Shown here: positions 14,393 to 55,802 of the stretch, one piece after another | How positions within the stretch are numbered: the first letter of the stretch is position 1 | How the letters are laid out: each line of letters opens with the position of its first letter | Assembly (NCBI GenBank): GCA_964019425.1 | Contig: OZ025803.1 | Coordinates: 857,001-921,000 of the forward strand | From: Flectonema sp. DT1601 | Taxonomy: Eukaryota > Euglenozoa > Diplonemea > Diplonemida > Diplonemidae | Reading direction: 5' to 3' | Length of the DNA: 64,000 bases | Program-made: the position numbers and the translations under genes | Notes under the pieces: generated by a model | What the model saw: only the letters and a program-made list of their open reading frames with translations | Database searches by the model: none | Told to the model about the DNA's origin: nothing

Positions 14393-15811
14393 TTAGACGT
14401 ACGGGTTAGAACCCGGTGGAGGTGCTCCACCAGGTTGCTGTCCTGCGTACGGGTTAGTACTCGCAGCGTATGGGTTCACTCCAGGTGGTGGTCCAGCCTG
14501 CGCATACGGGTTCGATGGAGCAGCGTATGCTTGAGGTGCACCATGAGCAGGAGGAGCATGATGTCCTGGTGCGTGCTGAGGTGGATATTGTCCGTGTGGA
14601 GGGGGCTGATGGTGTGGGTTGTACTGGTTCTGTACCGGTGCGATTCTTGAAGGTTGCAGTGGACCAAAAAAGCTGAATTTCCCACTCAAATCAACAGGTT
14701 TGCTCGACGACAGTTGGGGAACCTGCTTAAATCCCTTGCGCTTCAAATCCTGACGCATACCGTCAAGCAGTTGAACAAAAGTGAGCCCTTGAGTTTTTAA
14801 CAATATTGATGCAAGGGCGTTAGTACAGGCTCCACCAGCACCACCTGGACCTGCACCAGAAGGCAGGTTAAACTGTCCAACGTTACCAACGTCAGCAGAT
14901 GTCTGACTGTCAGAACACCCGGAGAACATAACAACATCTGCGTGAGAATGCTTCTTCTTGTCTTCCTTAGGCTTTCCACCACCGAGAAGTGCTCCAAGGC
15001 CACCTCCTCCACCGCCAACGGCACCAAGCATCTGCATCATCAATTCTTGTTTCTTCTTCTTACCTCCAGTGAAGTAGGACATAGCCATCTTTGATGGGTC
15101 TAGAGCAAGACCTTGCTGGGTGGCTTTAAAACTGAATGGCAGGTCCATTGCTGTTCCAGAGTGGCAGCAGTCCATCACTGCAGTCATACGAACTCCAGCA
15201 GGAAGACGAGCAACAAGAATATCGAAGATAACATCGTCAGTAATTTGACCAGCCTTTCTAAAGTCAACAGGGATAAGAGTCTCATCAAAACCATCTCCCT
15301 CATCACCGTCCAAATCTTTTACTTGTCCTCCGTGACCAGAGTAGTGGAAGAACAGTGTGTCACCTGGTCTGTTGTTAGATGCAAGCCAAGTCATCGCATT
15401 TATAATCTCCTGCTTGGTAGGACTCTTTGCTCCTGGAAAGCTTCGGTCATCACAGAGAATAACTTCCTGATAGCTACCCTGCGCGTATCCAACTCTACGG
15501 AGTACCTGTTGCATTGTCTTTACGTCATTGATGCATCCACTAAGTTGACCCTGTTGACCGTAGTAGTTGATACCAATAAGAAGTGCTTTCCTGTTACCAG
15601 AACCAGGAGCACCACCACCAACTGGAGCTTGTTGCTGGTATGCCTGAGGTGGCGGCTGTTGGTAGTGCTGTTGTTGCGGTTGGTGTTGATGGTGTTGTTG
15701 GTGAGCTGCTGGCTGTGAGTATCCTCTTCCTGCACCAGGCTTACCGACGTGACCATCACCATCTAAGTCGACACCTAACACCTTCTCAGCATGTTGAAAA
15801 AGCTTCTTCAT
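14393..15811 (-). CDS. Type I metacaspase
   Basis: A single-exon, 472-aa cysteine peptidase of family C14. Residues 14-25 (VDLDGDGHVGKP) look like an EF-hand calcium loop. Residues 30-70 are Gln/His/Pro-rich, like the prodomain of type I metacaspases. The p20 caspase fold begins at NRKALLIGINYYG (73-85). The catalytic dyad is His160 in HYSGHGG and Cys216 in DCCHSG. FSGCSDSQTSAD lies further on, where substrate-pocket residues sit in the family. The C-terminal about 90 residues are Pro/Gly/Tyr-rich with repeated NPYA, resembling the long tails of some kinetoplastid metacaspases. The enzyme should be a calcium-activated Arg/Lys-specific protease. The dyad is intact, so activity is expected. Confidence 0.95.
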   Translation of the reverse strand: MKKLFQHAEKVLGVDLDGDGHVGKPGAGRGYSQPAAHQQHHQHQPQQQHYQQPPPQAYQQQAPVGGGAPGSGNRKALLIGINYYGQQGQLSGCINDVKTMQQVLRRVGYAQGSYQEVILCDDRSFPGAKSPTKQEIINAMTWLASNNRPGDTLFFHYSGHGGQVKDLDGDEGDGFDETLIPVDFRKAGQITDDVIFDILVARLPAGVRMTAVMDCCHSGTAMDLPFSFKATQQGLALDPSKMAMSYFTGGKKKKQELMMQMLGAVGGGGGGLGALLGGGKPKEDKKKHSHADVVMFSGCSDSQTSADVGNVGQFNLPSGAGPGGAGGACTNALASILLKTQGLTFVQLLDGMRQDLKRKGFKQVPQLSSSKPVDLSGKFSFFGPLQPSRIAPVQNQYNPHHQPPPHGQYPPQHAPGHHAPPAHGAPQAYAAPSNPYAQAGPPPGVNPYAASTNPYAGQQPGGAPPPGSNPYV

Positions 15812-23565: not shown

Positions 23566-23572
23566 GCCGCTT

Positions 23573-23621
<49 letters not shown>

Positions 23622-23638
23622 AATCCCAGGTGGTGGCA
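23566..23638 (+). tRNA. trnF: tRNA-Phe (GAA)
   Basis: A 73-nt cloverleaf. D-stem GCTC/GAGC; anticodon stem TCAGA/TCTGA around loop CTGAAGA, giving anticodon GAA; variable AGGTC; T-stem CCTGG/CCAGG around TTCAATC; discriminator A. The acceptor stem pairs GCCGCTT with TGGTGGC, with two G-T wobbles and a T-T mismatch at the base of the stem. A box (TAGCTCAGTTGG) and B box (GGTTCAATCCC) match the internal Pol III promoter, and TTTTT just downstream is a Pol III terminator. No intron and no encoded CCA. It is the only gene on the plus strand. Confidence 0.97.
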
Positions 23639-44694: not shown

Positions 44695-47600
44695 TTACAC
44701 CCACCTGGTTCTGTTCTTATACCCTATTCTTTTAATAAAGTTATAGTATGGATATATTTGATCTGAAATAATATATAAACCCAATCACTATCAGTACCGA
44801 GAAGGGGCATTTCTCACGACAGGCTTGCCAGCAGTGAGTCACGTTTTTAAACAACGAAGCAAAATTAAACCTTACCAGATGAAAAGACGTATCCCTTTGA
44901 GGACGAAGGAGATTGTCTTACACTTCTCGAGGATGCTTCACTGGATGGAGGTGGTGGAGGTTTTCTCTTTCCTGATGTCAGCTGTGGAGGTGGAGGTGGC
45001 TTTTGCTGCTCACCAGACATCCCTGGCTGTGAAAAGGTGTGTCGAGGAGTGACCTCTGGTATTGTTATCATTTTTTTACCACCCGCAAAGAATGTATTTG
45101 CAGGAACAACAGGAAAGTTATGCTTATAAGTAGGCGATTGGCCTCCTGAAGTACCCCCTGCAGTAGGACTGTTCTGAAAAGAGGAATGACTTCGCTGGTC
45201 ATCTTCGGGTATCTTCTTCCTCTGAGGCAGTGCGTGAGGTTGACTTTCCCTTGCTGCTTCTAATGCTGCGATTTTCTTCTTTAATGACGCAGTTTGTGAT
45301 TCCATTTCCTTTACTTTTGCTAGCCTAGCAGTTTCGGATGGACTGATCCTTTTCTTTTCAGAAAATGGTAAGAAAGAATCACTCGAATCGCTACTATTCC
45401 ACTGGAGTGGATTTATTACTTTTGTCAACGGACTTAGCGACGAAGATCTGGACGCCGGTGAAAATTTCAACGTCTGTCTCTGTGCCACCAGTGATGAAAT
45501 GGTATCAAAATCACTTACAGATCGAGGAGGAGGTATCGGAGGTGATTTCTTAACCTTCTTCTTTTTTCCCGATGAGGGATCTGAACTGACAACCGACTTT
45601 ACATCTTCGTCAGGTTTGACCGGTTTTTCAATAAATCTTGATGCCCTCTTGACACCAGAAGGCGCCTCAACTCCAAACGCCAAACTAAGTGAGACCCTTC
45701 CCCAGTAAGGAGATCTTAAGCTACTCCAGAGTACGATACTTTTGACTTTCTGACGAAGTCTTCCCCATCGACGTCTACTTCTGGTAGAAGCGTTATCAGG
45801 GGCTTCGATTTGAAATAAATATGCGCGATTGCTGAAACTTGCAAACTTGTATGTGCTAGGGATCATTGCGGGAAATTTAATTTTGTCTTGACCTTCATAT
45901 TCAAAACAAACACCTCTAAGTAAGATTGAATATTGTGTTTCAGGTTTTAGTTTGTGAGTTCTAATTGAATCCCATTCTGAGTCCACTTCTTGAATTTGAG
46001 CACCAGATCCGGACACGGCGTATTTTCGTATTTCTGAAGTTGACCATTTTTCAAATTGTGGTTCCAAAGCCATTAGGATGCGAGCAGCCTGAACACCACA
46101 TTCTTGCCAGAGAGACTCAGCGATTGAAGGATTGCTTTTCATCGCAGCAGTTATCTTATTAGCTTTGAGAAATATAACATGGCAAGCACTACTTGTCACG
46201 ATGTCATCAAAACGACTACTTTCAGTGAGAAGTGATTGAAGACCAAGTGTGTAACTCGCTCCATATCTAAAGATCTTTCTTCCGAGACGGATTTCAACTA
46301 TTCCGCTAACAAGAAAGTAAAGTCCTCCGAGGCCTTCAGGACTGTTGACGGATACCTTTTCAGGAATTATCATACCCGATCCCAGAAATAATGTTCTCAA
46401 TATATTCTGACCGGACTCATCAATTCTTTGAAACCACGGAGCCATCTCAAGAGCTGATTCGTCATCTGGTAGATTAAGTTTTGATGGAAATTTTTGTTGT
46501 AAATTCTTCATTCTCAACTCAATCATACTTACTAACTCTGCTCTGTCTTGATCATCAAGTCTTCCCTCCGCATGCATATCGGCGACTATCAATTTCATTC
46601 CATTGAGTACAGACCTACTAGTGTGTTTAGTTTTGATACTCGTACTAATAGTAGCTGCTGAGTCAGTGTATATATTAATTAGATGACCTGTTTGAGTGAT
46701 CGCACGCTTACAGTGTGTCTCAATACGAGATGCTACGTGTGTTTCACAAACAGGTCTAATACGAGCCTTTGCATAAGTGTGACAGGCTACAAAACCTAAA
46801 CAGATATCCAGAGCTTGAACAAGACGTTGTTGAGAACCAGTTCCAGTAAGGGATGAGAATCTGCTTGGTTCAAAGAATTGTTTTAAATCAGCAGGGTCTA
46901 ATAATCCTGATTCATCTCTCTCTTGAGAAACGATCACTAAGTGATGCAAATCTCTAACAGCATCTGGTCCCAACTGACCCTGAGCATACTGGCTGTGAAT
47001 ACATCCCTGTATAGCGTTATAATACGCACAACGACCTTCTTCCCAACTCTTCTCTTCGTACTTTTCGTCACATTTATCAAAACATCTTTCACCCTTTAAC
47101 ATGTATGGGTTTTGATGTTTGTCAGAGAGTTCTGTTTCAATGTCGGTGTAGCTGTTTTGAGGTTTGTTACATTATGAAAATAAAAAATTATTAAATTAGT
47201 TATCCCAACAAACAATAATAAACACATAGGCATACCGATACACAAGTTCCCAGTTACAGTCGTAGTAAGCGGAGGCTGTCATCTCATTCCAACCAAGAGA
47301 CCGGATGTCTTCTTTTCGGTAGGCTTGGAGTTCTTCGAATCGGTCTCGCATTAGTTTCTTTCTGCGATCTTCAATTTTAGATAATCCAAAGTATACTACT
47401 ATGTATTGTGTTGTCACACCGTTTACACACAATGTTAAAATAACGATACCAGCCACATGAAAAATAAACTTCTCCCTCACAAGAGGAACAACAACTCTAT
47501 CATCCGCTTCAATAATTAAAGCTAACGCCAGACCTACAGCTCCTCGTAGACCTCCCCAAGCAACTAGAATTGTATTACCAACATCTAACTTGTACTCAAA

Positions 47601-49682
47601 GCATGAGAATTTCATTAGAACGGCAAATATACCAACGACTAATGCTCTCACGATATTGATGGTGACGTAAATAATACCGAGATATCCAATGTCAGCACCT
47701 GTGATGTTATTCAATGCTTTCATCACTACAATCATTCCAGCTAAGGCAAAGATGCAAGTGTTCGTAAGGTAGACTGTCATTTCCCAAAACTCGTGTAGAT
47801 AATGCTCAACTTCTGGAGATATGCATTGCCTGAAATACGACATATAACAACCCAACACAACGAGTCCTAAGACACCAGAGACATGAAGGAGACCTTCACA
47901 TACAAAAAAAGTAATATATGCACTTGTCAAGGTGACTGTTATTTCAATAAGCCCGTCGTTAAACACTCTGTTTAAACAGAATACGGTAATCACGGCAATA
48001 ACAAATCCAACTGCCGGACCACCAAGTGACACAATGCAAAACTGAAGGAAGATTTCTGCTATATTATACGGAATAGAGCATTCAGGTATACACGTGCATT
48101 GATCACCACAGGTATCGAATTGAGGAGTGCAACCTCCTCCTTCCCCTCGTTCTACACTTGACTTGAGAACAGTAAAGAAGACAATAGCAGTACCATCATT
48201 AAATAGTGATTCTCCTTCGATCATGGTTGAGATGAGTTTAGACGCTCCAAGTTCTTTTAATAGAGCGACGACGGCAACTGGATCTGTCGCAGATAAAATG
48301 GTACCAAACAACAGACAGGCTGGTAGAGTCCAATCGTATTCAGTAAATGTATATTTCGCTACCAGACCAGTCAATAACGATGATATCATTAATCCTGGAA
48401 CTGCGAGTATCAAACACTGACCCATAACCTTTTTAAACACATGCATCTCCATAGCAAACGCACTTTCAAAAATCAACACCGGCAGAAATATATAAAATAT
48501 CATATGGGGATTCATGTTCGCTAACTGTTCGTACTTATCCATCGTTGAAGCAGCGCCAGGGATCTTATTTAAAGCTCCGTATCCCATACCGACTAAGAAC
48601 ATGACAACTGTGTAAGGTACTTTGGTACCAAGACAGAGGTACCTAACAAATGCTCCCATCGCAAATGTTCCAAAGATTACCAACACATTCCACGGTCTTG
48701 AGTCGTGTTGAATTTCATGGTCAAGAGTGTGGTCGTCCTCGTGACTGACAAGTCCAAAATTCTTAACTGCCTGAAAAGCTAATAACTGAGCCTTCGTTTC
48801 ATTAGAAATATGTTTCGGACAACTTTTCTCAAACCAAGTGAAGTCATCCTTTCTATCAATTTCCCAATGATGTGGAACACATATTCCGAATGCCTGACTG
48901 TGAGCAATTGTTGAACATCTAGGTTTACACTTTCTCAAAGCTGTATCAAAAAAACATCCATTTTGATGTTGGCAGAAGTCACTTTTACTTCGGGGGATTC
49001 CTCGGCAATCTTTGCAGGTATTTCCTTCATAATAACATCCTGTGTTTTCACACTCGGCTTTATCTTTTTTGAGCGTACAGTTTCCATCATCTACCCTCTC
49101 CTGTAAGATTGGTGACAAGGGAGGATCCTTTAAGTGAACTGTGAAAGTACCTCTTGAAGGTCCATGAGCAGCGAATACAGATGAGTCTGGTCTCCCTGTA
49201 CCAGACGCTGAGATGACTGTGATAACACTTGGAGTAGATCCAAAAGTAAAGTAAGGTCTTACAGTTGGTATTGTCATGTTAATTAGTCGTCGACCATTAT
49301 CAACTTCATCAATTGCTGTTGTTAATTGTCTGATCAGATCTCCTTCACCAGCATTTGATAGAAGTCGTTCCTCAACCTTTCTCGAGTCCGCAACTCCGCT
49401 AATAATAATTGCATAAGTGTTGTCCATAATTCCTGATCCGTTCAAGCTCATTGAAATGTTTCCTGGGAAACCAATCCCGATCCATATTCCGAGCATTGTT
49501 TCCACTGTAATTCTCACTTCTCCTCTAGATCCTGCATCAGAATCAACGTATATGTCTAATTTTAATAACCACGGAGCTTCTATGGGACGTTCCTCCTCAC
49601 CGTGAAGCAGCTCCAACTTCCTACATCCTGTCAGCAGTAGTAGTGACAGCAGACATAGTAAAATTAAGGTGTGCCTTGTCAT
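44695..49682 (-). CDS. Na+/H+ exchanger with DOMON-like ectodomain and CNBD-like tail
   Basis: Exons 47236-49682, 44876-47151 and 44695-44762 total 4791 nt (1596 aa). The ATG at 49682 lies 8 nt behind a pyrimidine-rich TCCTCAACAG acceptor and opens a signal peptide (LILLCLLSLLLL). Residues about 30-185 resemble a DOMON beta-sandwich (GIWIGIGFPG..MDNTYAIIISG). A Cys-rich module (about 200-275) follows. The CPA1 exchanger core (about 335-790) has TDPVAVVALLKELG, EGESLFNDGTAIVFF and AWGGLRGAVGLALAL, with about 12 membrane helices. The cytoplasmic part has a helical region and a CNBD-like beta-roll (about 1075-1180), then a basic, Pro-rich tail. This order recalls plant SOS1 and animal sperm NHE. 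The last exon is the least certain part; a stop at 44865 without the last intron also keeps frame. Confidence 0.9.
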
Positions 49683-49976
49683 TGACACTTCTGTTGAGGA
49701 AAAGGTATAATAAACTAAAGTACTAATTTTCATTATAAAAAACATGTTATAAGAAATCTGTCACAAGAAATAAGTAAAAAAAAAAAAGGAAAGGACGAAA
49801 TCACAGAATGGCGACATCGGCCGGGCTTCTATTTATATGGAAAATATATTTTATATTTATTTTTTTTAGAATAGTTCTCAAAGAATAGTTTAAAATCAAC
49901 AACATAGGAGGATAGGAATTTTATAAAATCTGTAATAAGAAGTTTTGTTGAATTCGTGTTATGTTATCAAACTGAA
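49683..49976. other. Intergenic spacer
   Basis: About 290 nt, AT-rich, with an A run near 49777. No gene is supported. Confidence 0.5.
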
Positions 49977-53600: not shown

Positions 53601-54569
53601 TTATGGTGTTCTCCTAAACCTCGCAGGACACATCTGCCCCCTGTTATCAACAATCGAAGTATCAGCACCATATTTAATTAAAAGGTCAGCAACGTCCATT
53701 TTCAAACAGCAATGGAGAGGTGTCTCACCACATTTCGTTTTGATATTCGGATTTGCGTTATTTTCGAGTAGGAGACGAGTGAACGTTGTATTAGTGCCGT
53801 AATGAAGTGCTGTACTCCAATTGTTTCGACGAGTATCTACGTCAGCCCCAAACTGTATGAGATGAGATGCAATGTTTGGGTGTTTTTGACAACAATGAAT
53901 CGGAGCGTATCCAAGTGCGTCTTGAACATTAGGACTAGCACCATTCTGAAGTAGAAGCTCTACGGTACTTTCATCTTTCGCAAAATGAAGAGCAACTCGT
54001 CCTGTCGTGGTAGTCGCATTGACATCAGCACCGTTTCTTATTAATAATTTTGCTTTTTCAGGAAGACTGTTCGTACCTCTTATTGGGTTAAAACAATCAA
54101 CAAGTGGAGTGAATCCGTCACTATCTCGAACATTAATATTAACATCATCTTGTGATATGAGATATTTTATAAATGTTAAATCTGTTGACAAGTGGAGAGC
54201 ACTGCGACCATCAGCTGTTATTGAGTTCACATTCACACCAGCATCAATAAAATACGTCGACAAGTCACTCTGTAATGAAACTTGTTTTAAGAATTCATCT
54301 TCCGTTATGTCTTTTTCTTTTAAAAATTTAATCGCATTTCCCTTTTTAGAACTAGTCATCACCAGCTCACAACATTCACAAATACCATAATCTCCTAACA
54401 GCTTGTGTTCTTCCATAATATTTCCCTCAAACGTGAGTTCAAAAAAAGAAGAGTCGAACCCCTCCTCTTGTGCTATCTGTTTCTTCACATTAATAACTTT
54501 AAAGTTTATCCGTACCTCAACAGGAATAACAGAACCAATAAAGTCAATGATTGAAATTGAAAGGGACAT
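53601..54569 (-). CDS. Ubiquitin-like domain plus ankyrin repeats
   Basis: A single-exon, 322-aa protein. The ATG at 54569 is 4 nt behind TTCACTTCCATACAG; an earlier in-frame ATG at 54641 would lie upstream of this acceptor. Residues 1-72 look ubiquitin-like: MSLSISIIDFIG, VEVRINFKVINVKKQIAQEEG, FFELTFEGNIM, LLGDYGICECCELVM. After a short helix, about six ankyrin repeats fill 110-315, with the usual G.(S/T).LH cores (DGRSALHLS, GFTPLVDCF, TGRVALHFA, GYAPIHCC, WSTALHYG, GETPLHCC). Such proteins act as adaptors, often in ubiquitin or proteasome pathways. No catalytic residues are present, and it ends directly after the last repeat. Confidence 0.88.
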   Translation of the reverse strand: MSLSISIIDFIGSVIPVEVRINFKVINVKKQIAQEEGFDSSFFELTFEGNIMEEHKLLGDYGICECCELVMTSSKKGNAIKFLKEKDITEDEFLKQVSLQSDLSTYFIDAGVNVNSITADGRSALHLSTDLTFIKYLISQDDVNINVRDSDGFTPLVDCFNPIRGTNSLPEKAKLLIRNGADVNATTTTGRVALHFAKDESTVELLLQNGASPNVQDALGYAPIHCCQKHPNIASHLIQFGADVDTRRNNWSTALHYGTNTTFTRLLLENNANPNIKTKCGETPLHCCLKMDVADLLIKYGADTSIVDNRGQMCPARFRRTP

Positions 54570-55802
54570 TCTCCTGTATGGAAGTGAATAGTAAATATAA
54601 AACATACTTAAAAATACGAATTTTTTTTCAAACCAACACATAGGTAGGCTTCTCTACCAAACAACTCCTTGAGAGAATACATGAACTGGGAAGGGAGGGG
54701 GGGGCAGACTGTATTTTTCATAACCTTAACAACAATAGTAACAAATCATCCGTCTCCGACATTTAGAATAACAAAAATAAAAATTTTCTCTCTCAAAAGC
54801 TACACCACAGAAAGGTCACTACATGAGAAGGAATAGAACACAAGTTTAACATCACATGAAACGCATCAAATAATAAGAACGGACTTTTTTAAGAAACACT
54901 GAAGTAACACAATCAATATCGAAAAACAGAAAAAAAGAGTGTGTGAAAAGGAAAAAAAAAAAAAAATTAAATTTAAATTTAAAAATCAGATTGTGAAGAC
55001 GTGTGACAGATATTTGTCACCATTTCTTCACCGAAACTACCAAAGTAATACGAATGTGCAGGATATGAATGTTAACTAATGCCCAACATTATAAAAAGAC
55101 TATTGGCTCCCACAACAGGTATAATCACTGCACCCATCAGTAAGTTTTAAATATCTTCACATAAAGACGAGTTCTACGTACCTGCTGACCCACTAGTAGT
55201 GGTCAACGTTGGTTAGCTGTGTGTGTGTCTGTGATCCAGGTTGATAAAAAGAAATCAAATTTCACCATAACCTAATCTATATCGTTAATGGTACAGTTAG
55301 GGTAAGAACACGACATGTGGAAACCCCGTAGAAAACGAAGGGGGGGAAAAAAAAAAAAAAAAAAAAGGAAAAAAGGAAACGGGAAAATTATTACAACACA
55401 GTGGTCCACACAATACGGTAAATATACCTGCAGCTGCAAGAGCGACTGTCGGGAGGTAATTTGATAACTATATTTATTAAAAGTTCAAAAGGAACAATTT
55501 CTCCGACAATCTTGACTTGTCAGCGGCAGCGTAGTAAATGACTGCAAATAAATAAATAATACCACTGGAGGCCACGTGAACATAGTCGGGAGGGGGAGTA
55601 GTTATTGTGCACCGAGTATATGCATATTTCTTTTAGTTATCATTTTAACCAGTACCAACATAACAATAATAAAAGTAAACTAAGCGAGTCAACACAAGGT
55701 AACTGTTGTTCTACACAAGACACACACTCTCTATCAATTCGCTTGGATTGTAGTCAAGTAGACTACCGAAAGGAACAAAGCCGTCAGTACTGAGCTGGAC
55801 AA
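54570..55802. other. 1.2-kb gene-free region
   Basis: AT-rich, with A runs near 54950 and 55341. No frame shows family character on either strand, and no RNA gene was seen. Confidence 0.6.

Follow-up and report, generated by a model that had tools for sequence, protein, structure and literature searches.

A CPA1-class Na+/H+ exchanger with a putative DOMON ectodomain and a CNBD-like domain in the diplonemid Flectonema sp. DT1601

Statements from the literature are here and below taken from excerpts of the cited papers. SOS1 is a plasma-membrane antiporter with 13 helices and its N-terminus outside the cell, and is controlled by its cytosolic tail (PMC10372031). SLC9C1, the sperm-specific exchanger (sNHE), has been described as the one transporter known to be under the control of voltage-sensing domains (PMC10620092), and the definition of SLC9C includes such a domain between the core and the cyclic-nucleotide-binding domain (CNBD) (PMC6660944). 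Dopamine beta-hydroxylase (DBH), cellobiose dehydrogenase and 2IVF share a common DOMON fold (PMC4846438). In cellobiose dehydrogenase a b heme is coordinated by a Met and a His, a pair that is kept in the CYBDOM proteins (PMC10691727) and that corresponds to M90 and H174 in the DOMON of plant HYP1 (PMC10784544). Here we describe a gene of Flectonema sp. DT1601, one of the diplonemids, which are among the most abundant deep-ocean protists (PMC12697944). The gene lies on the minus strand of a 64,000-nucleotide window (positions 857,001 to 921,000 of contig OZ025803.1, assembly GCA_964019425.1) and appears to join a DOMON ectodomain to an exchanger with a CNBD-like domain; we refer to it as the DOMON-exchanger.

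From the start codon at 49682 the reading frame runs uninterrupted for 815 codons (49682-47237) to a GT donor at 47235. As the whole ectodomain and the exchanger core sit in this single frame of exon 1, the DOMON-exchanger fusion requires no splicing, and only the CNBD part depends on an 84-base intron (47235-47152). The sequence-only reading had proposed one spliced gene with signal peptide, DOMON-like domain, Cys-rich module, CPA1 core and CNBD-like domain in this order, and the order is borne out. It had also proposed a survey for the same order elsewhere, which was found in the proteins P0002 (1809 aa) and P0003 (1857 aa), both among the best 120 of 1670 homologues with E<=0.001 (out of 7988 scored candidates) and both labelled as complete open reading frames (ORFs) of transcript assemblies in EukProt. 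They align with the DOMON-exchanger over ectodomain, core and cytosolic part, with an ectodomain identity of about 25% each (local comparison against the 120: E=1e-21 and 6e-15). The features encoded by exon 1 are as follows.

49682-47236, minus strand: exon 1, one open frame for signal peptide, DOMON, Cys-rich module and the whole CPA1 exchanger core
49623..49682, minus strand: signal peptide, residues ~1-20 (hydropathy peak 1.92 at residues 5-23)
49125..49574, minus strand: putative DOMON domain, residues 37-186
49425..49427, minus strand: Met86, candidate heme axial ligand (Met in 22/22 rows of the profile alignment; invariant in 3 exchangers)
49164..49166, minus strand: His173, candidate heme axial ligand (His in 20/20 rows with a letter there)
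48819..49097, minus strand: Cys-rich module with the juxtamembrane motif WFEKSCP, residues 196-288 (11 Cys; aligned in P0002 and P0003)
47397..48692, minus strand: CPA1 exchanger membrane core, residues 331-762 (ATDP with Asp467, FNDG with Asn495-Asp496)

Plain searches with Pfam do not detect the DOMON. PF03351 gave no match up to E=1 in the DOMON-exchanger and none in P0002 or P0003, the gene is absent from the 56 Pfam DOMON matches of its own genome, and the NCBIfam scan returned exchanger models only. The ectodomain profile, compared directly with eight DOMON stretches that Pfam does detect in this genome (L001-L008), gave a weak match (15.9%, E=0.0016). When the genome was searched with the ectodomain, the gene itself and eight weak places were found (E=1.6e-4 to 0.76). 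The first of these, at C31, is the juxtamembrane part of an exchanger paralogue, and the other seven lie in DOMON-repeat frames at C27 (L045), C58 (L046, L050, L051), C32 (L047, L048) and C23 (L049). Pfam scans covered four of these frames, L045, L046, L047 and L049. DOMON scored 73.4 bits across four stretches of L045 (cut-off 32.7), 68 bits in L047 and 28.6 bits, below the cut-off, in L046. The best stretch of L045 (504-593) is the unit matching the DOMON-exchanger and alone reaches 27.1 bits, also below the cut-off. L049 was not matched by the Pfam DOMON model.

To these repeat frames the ectodomain is connected by more sensitive comparisons. A profile built from 19 DOMON units of L045, L046, L047, L049 and L050, with the exchangers left out, matched residues 52-186 of the DOMON-exchanger with 43.3 bits (E=1.7e-12 among ~1270 sequences), and the best of 1000 shuffled ectodomains reached 4.3 bits. 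It should be noted that the 19 units were picked for their resemblance to this ectodomain; P0002 and P0003 played no part in that choice, and they scored 39.0 and 36.1 bits, while the other 118 listed database proteins gave no match up to E=10. In the reverse search a profile of the three exchangers recovered the frames of L045-L051, each scoring between 68 and 135 bits, where the highest of 500 shuffles reached 8.3 bits (E=0.094); up to E=0.1 it recovered neither the Pfam-positive L001-L008 nor any exchanger paralogue locus of the genome. With hhalign the exchangers aligned to six of the own-genome DOMON units (98.1%, E=1.2e-13), and the same six units to the eight Pfam-positive stretches (95%, E=3.9e-8). 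These steps indicate homology of the ectodomain to accepted DOMONs through intermediates. L049 (G000:C23:47521 region) is a multi-DOMON protein with a ferric-reductase/FAD-binding unit (Ferric_reduct 60 bits, FAD_binding_6 23 bits), L045 (G000:C27:911984 region) combines several DOMONs with a cytochrome-b561-like unit just below the Pfam cut-off (Cytochrom_B561 22.1, cut-off 23), and L046, L047 and L050 are tandem arrays of near-identical DOMON units. A scan of bacterial and archaeal species genomes for this DOMON type gave 65 pattern matches and no relatives among them.

Structure comparison pointed to the same fold, from a model of low confidence. The AlphaFold model of the 330-residue ectodomain had a pLDDT of 40.7 and was set aside. 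In VIA-align ranks 1-9 were all DOMON-fold proteins, namely the cytochromes of cellobiose dehydrogenase and pyranose dehydrogenase, dopamine beta-hydroxylase and ethylbenzene dehydrogenase. Foldseek with the DOMON-only model gave no match at E<=0.001, its top rows being unrelated, and a profile search of solved structures with alignment A5, in which the Met is misaligned, returned no DOMON chains and three chance matches. The ectodomain is likely to be a DOMON beta-sandwich. Among the checks suggested with the sequence-only reading, the plain HMM search for DOMON came out empty, an outcome that had been named as refuting, but DOMON is indicated by profile comparisons of higher sensitivity and by structure, and structure prediction gave a DOMON-fold ranking in VIA-align but nothing in Foldseek at that threshold. 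The ectodomain is ~300 residues long, with 5 N-glycosylation sequons (at 75, 81, 135, 201 and 294), and all 11 cysteines of the Cys-rich module lie between residues 202 and 288. Trefoil was rejected as the identity of this module (E=3 and 6.8 only, in the Pfam scans of P0002 and P0003).

The counts for Met86 and His173 come from the HMM alignment and not from A5; the 19 DOMON units in it are not independent, many being near-copies from few genes. At the His173 column P0002 and P0003 are unaligned in the profile alignment, and their His aligns by MAFFT, so that it is invariant in the three exchangers. From the HMM and MAFFT alignments it seems that Met86 and His173 correspond to the Met/His pair of heme-b DOMONs, and binding of a b heme by the ectodomain is predicted.

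The exchanger core is assigned by Pfam Na_H_Exchanger (PF00999; residues 349-762, E=5.3e-58, 197.1 bits against a cut-off of 26.2). The motifs with the ion-binding acidic residues, SATDP (Asp467) and NDG (Asp496), are present in 23/23 aligned proteins, and simple hydropathy gives 11 peaks in the core. Against solved structures the best match was the sperm-specific exchanger 8xq8 (E=7.8e-100), then SOS1 8j2m (E=4.7e-81), with far weaker matches to NHE1 (1.6e-20) and NHE6 (2.2e-16). Core and motifs indicate a Na+/H+ exchanger of the CPA1 (SLC9 type) class. Behind the core the following features were found.

47152..47235, minus strand: GT-AG intron of 84 bases; joining restores the frame
46419..47375, minus strand: cytoplasmic region, equivalent of the SOS1 alpha-CTD, residues ~770-1060, spanning the intron
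46059..46376, minus strand: CNBD-like domain, residues 1075-1180 (SOS1 and sNHE matches)
46212..46250, minus strand: degenerate phosphate-binding cassette, residues 1117-1129 (alignment of 23 proteins)
45654..46031, minus strand: conserved region, residues 1190-1315, placed where SOS1 has its beta-CTD (P0001-P0003 similarity to residue ~1315)
44865..45653, minus strand: low-complexity Pro/Ser/Lys-rich tail and stop codon (ORF reading)

Both sides of the 47235-47152 join are matched within single proteins (P0001, P0002 and P0003), which agrees with the join 47236/47151 given before. Exon-2 residues 105-380 match residues 587-865 of SOS1 8j2m (E=1.9e-11), over its helical region and CNBD-like domain; the match of the cytosolic part to sNHE is weaker (2.6e-7). 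No voltage sensor was found past the core, where the best 19-residue hydropathy is 1.13 and the ion-transport model PF00520 has no match up to E=1. Core, alpha-CTD and CNBD-like domain without a voltage sensor make up an SOS1-like layout, and by position only, residues 1190-1315 may be equivalent to the SOS1 beta-CTD. The protein also ends in a tail, the part that in SOS1-like exchangers is autoinhibitory and phosphorylated by an SOS2-type kinase. The likeness of the exchanger-CNBD order to SOS1 and sperm NHE, already seen in the sequence-only reading, holds for both core and cytosolic matches. On residues 1075-1180 Pfam cNMP_binding was detected with 22.9 bits, below its cut-off of 27.5. The cassette is degenerate as had been claimed, with Leu1120 at the Glu position; it had been overlooked that the Arg position is retained (Arg1129). 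Elsewhere on the same contig, outside the window, a dense tandem array of cNMP_binding matches lies within ~10 kb (G000:C24:1133848-1144183).

The nearest relative by core is P0001 (73% identical), which has no signal peptide and whose first residue lies within the Cys module, so that its 5' end is probably missing. A protein search with ectodomain residues 20-330 gave no match, not even P0002; the word filter was limiting here, so this is weak evidence of absence. With the P0002 ectodomain as query, P0002 itself and P0003 were the sole matches up to E=10, the DOMON-exchanger not being among them. A quick maximum-likelihood tree was computed from 86 cores: that of the DOMON-exchanger, those of nine paralogues from its own genome, and those of 76 proteins out of the 120 from the database. 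It places the DOMON-exchanger in a clade of 71 rows (SH-aLRT 100), separate from the bacterial and the metazoan sNHE-like proteins. The clade also holds Diplonema papillatum P0016, P0021, P0023, P0030, P0054 and P0056, none of which (0/6) has a DOMON by the own-genome profile, and 8/9 paralogues, a placement that by itself points to a diplonemid-like source. DOMON-exchanger with P0001 has a support of 90 and P0002 with P0003 of 100, both pairs lying within a nine-row set (96) with P0004-P0007 and one paralogue; the DOMON of the exchangers may have had a single origin. Four paralogues have a core identical to ENA proteins, and the labels Hpha and Sspe are presumably Hemistasia and Sulcionema.

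Ectodomains vary among these exchangers. A hydrophobic N-terminus (12-residue mean >=1.6) was seen in 53 of P0001-P0061, one of which, P0020, starts inside the core. Between 53 and 458 residues precede the core in 59 of these 61, and this stretch includes as many as 48 Cys; by eye, a signal-like start is present in 8/9 own paralogues. A sister group comprises P0030, P0036, P0037, P0039, P0045, P0050 and own paralogue L038; the ectodomains of its six database proteins have 42 to 47 Cys, many in C-x-W units, and a ubiquitin-like domain occurs in P0037, P0039, P0045 and P0050, in P0039 between core and CNBD. P0103 (1750 aa), with four Fasciclin stretches ahead of a CPA1 core and a weak CNBD behind it, is a further fusion of an ectodomain to an exchanger; it sits on a long branch, which leaves its position in the tree unsure.

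Both ends of the gene are given as candidates. Additional in-frame ATGs lie 5' of the chosen start, at 49745 and 49733. Spliced-leader trans-splicing occurs in diplonemids and other Euglenozoa, and a pyrimidine tract with AG upstream of the start at 49682 would fit a trans-splice acceptor:

49691..49703, minus strand: candidate trans-splice acceptor, a pyrimidine-rich stretch with a terminal AG that lies 8 bases 5' of the start codon (read from the sequence)

At the 3' end a possible last intron (44875-44763, join 44876/44762) has acceptable GT/AG ends and no further support. Reading through it gives a stop at 44865 and a protein of 1577 aa, splicing gives 1596 aa. Elsewhere in the window we note a tRNA gene at 23566-23638 (plus strand, 61.6 bits in the Rfam scan; 33 of the 36 ORFs of at least 150 aa lie on the other strand), an ORF with a caspase domain (Peptidase_C14, 148 bits) at 14393-15811 (minus strand), and an ORF with a ubiquitin-like domain and ankyrin repeats at 53601-54641 (minus strand).

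Somewhat short of an even chance, but ahead of the alternatives below, we suggest that the gene encodes a plasma-membrane Na+/H+ exchanger of SOS1/sNHE type whose N-terminal, extracellular heme-b-type DOMON senses or relays redox state. By analogy to SOS1, 13 membrane helices would place the DOMON outside and the CNBD-like part inside the cell. A b heme held by Met86 and His173 would sense, or relay electrons from, the redox state of the cell surface, which may in turn be determined by the DOMON-b561-like and DOMON-ferric-reductase proteins that this genome encodes. Through the Cys-rich stalk the signal might reach the dimeric core and set the rate of Na+-driven proton export; as electron export leaves protons in the cytosol, Na+/H+ exchange would offset the acid. 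The CNBD-like domain would be mainly a structural or autoinhibitory part. The sequence supports the domain order, the one frame for DOMON and core, the order in P0002 and P0003, the DOMON homology, Met86 and His173, the lack of a voltage sensor and the degenerate CNBD; from these we infer topology, heme binding, redox sensing or relay, gating and the structural role of the CNBD-like domain. An extracellular input rather than cyclic nucleotide, as supposed earlier, would fit the loss of the cassette Glu and the conservation of a Met/His pair of heme type. Cyclic nucleotide may still be bound, since Arg1129 is retained. Further, we speculate on a bolder version, which we regard as rather unlikely: a solute carrier that bears a b-type cytochrome of its own outside the cell, in which the redox or ligand state of the heme directly sets exchange and couples trans-plasma-membrane electron flow to pH, as one of a diplonemid radiation of receptor-like exchangers with varied ectodomains.

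Unlikely too, yet not negligible, is that the ectodomain serves only trafficking, stability, adhesion or dimer contacts, with control exerted in the cytosol through the CNBD-like part and tail phosphorylation as in SOS1. Changes of the heme ligands in the HYP1 DOMON impaired plasma-membrane localization (PMC10784544), SOS1 is governed by its cytosolic tail (PMC10372031), and ectodomains differ so widely among related exchangers that none seems essential to transport; but Met86 and His173 are kept at only ~25% ectodomain identity, beyond the need of a mere spacer. With a still lower probability the DOMON might bind an extracellular carbohydrate or small ligand instead of heme and make a ligand-gated exchanger, a role known DOMONs of the sugar-binding kind would suggest. 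The Met/His pair is not conserved in sugar-binding and DBH DOMONs (PMC10691727) and is conserved here, and two of the four best-matching own-genome DOMON genes (L045, b561-like below the cut-off, and L049, ferric-reductase) encode electron-transfer-like proteins.

We hold it to be improbable that the exchanger works inside the cell, on an acidic compartment whose lumen contains the DOMON, for instance in heme or iron handling. Heme-synthesis genes were not found in limited Diplonema papillatum data (PMC4870792), so external heme may matter, whereas sNHE and SOS1 are matched best, with NHE6 and NHE9 far behind, and SOS1 is a plasma-membrane antiporter (PMC10372031). Very improbable, and the least likely of all, is an annotation artefact that merges two genes, either between DOMON and exchanger or between exchanger and CNBD. 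In its favour no transcript from the species itself is in evidence, and the start codon and last intron are uncertain. Two separate genes are excluded for DOMON and exchanger by the one uninterrupted frame, and the transcript-derived P0002 and P0003 contain the entire order; we therefore reject the artefact.

If the redox reading is true, a pump that governs the pH of the cell may be linked to signals from outside, with heme and control both predicted; a transporter with a cytochrome-type sensor would be another such hybrid beside SLC9C1 and would make it possible to test directly if secondary transport is gated by heme or by the redox state outside the cell. The varied ectodomains on CPA1-CNBD exchangers of the clade suggest that exchangers are used as receptors. 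No published DOMON-exchanger fusion is described in the excerpts of the literature matched by full-text search for DOMON with exchanger or antiporter, or DOMON with diplonemid, in agreement with the sequence-only reading, which knew of no such exchanger. The excerpts of PMC12697944 mention neither DOMON nor antiporter, and those of PMC7052976 hold no passage on heme or Na+.

Compared with known systems, plant SOS1 (8j2m and 8iwo; 7y3e and 8jd9 are named sodium/hydrogen exchanger 7) likewise has a CPA1 core, a helical region and a CNBD-like domain without a voltage sensor. In Arabidopsis SOS1, however, the membrane part begins at residue 32, which leaves no space for such an ectodomain, and the CNBD Arg is replaced by Y820 (PMC10372031), whereas the DOMON-exchanger retains Arg1129. 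Sperm SLC9C1/sNHE (8xq8, 8otq, 8pcz) is the best core match and has a CNBD; the DOMON-exchanger differs from it in lacking the voltage-sensing domain, in its DOMON ectodomain and in its degenerate cassette. Membership of SLC9C was rejected, and by the definition in PMC6660944 it is an sNHE homologue and not an SLC9C member because it has no voltage sensor. The CYBDOM proteins (HYP1, CG8399/SDR2) and the cellobiose dehydrogenase cytochrome also have a DOMON with conserved Met/His (PMC10784544, PMC10691727), the cellobiose dehydrogenase cytochromes being the top structural matches of the ectodomain; their DOMON sits on a membrane or catalytic part that is an electron-transfer enzyme, in contrast to the ion exchanger here. 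Exchangers of the same clade (P0004-P0061 and own paralogues) mostly share the hydrophobic N-terminus, ectodomain, CPA1 core and CNBD-like part, but DOMON profiles match only P0002 and P0003 of the 120 listed and no own-genome exchanger paralogue locus up to E=0.1. The SOS1/sNHE-type order of core and CNBD is of an already known kind, and the DOMON on an exchanger is new as far as the literature search shows.

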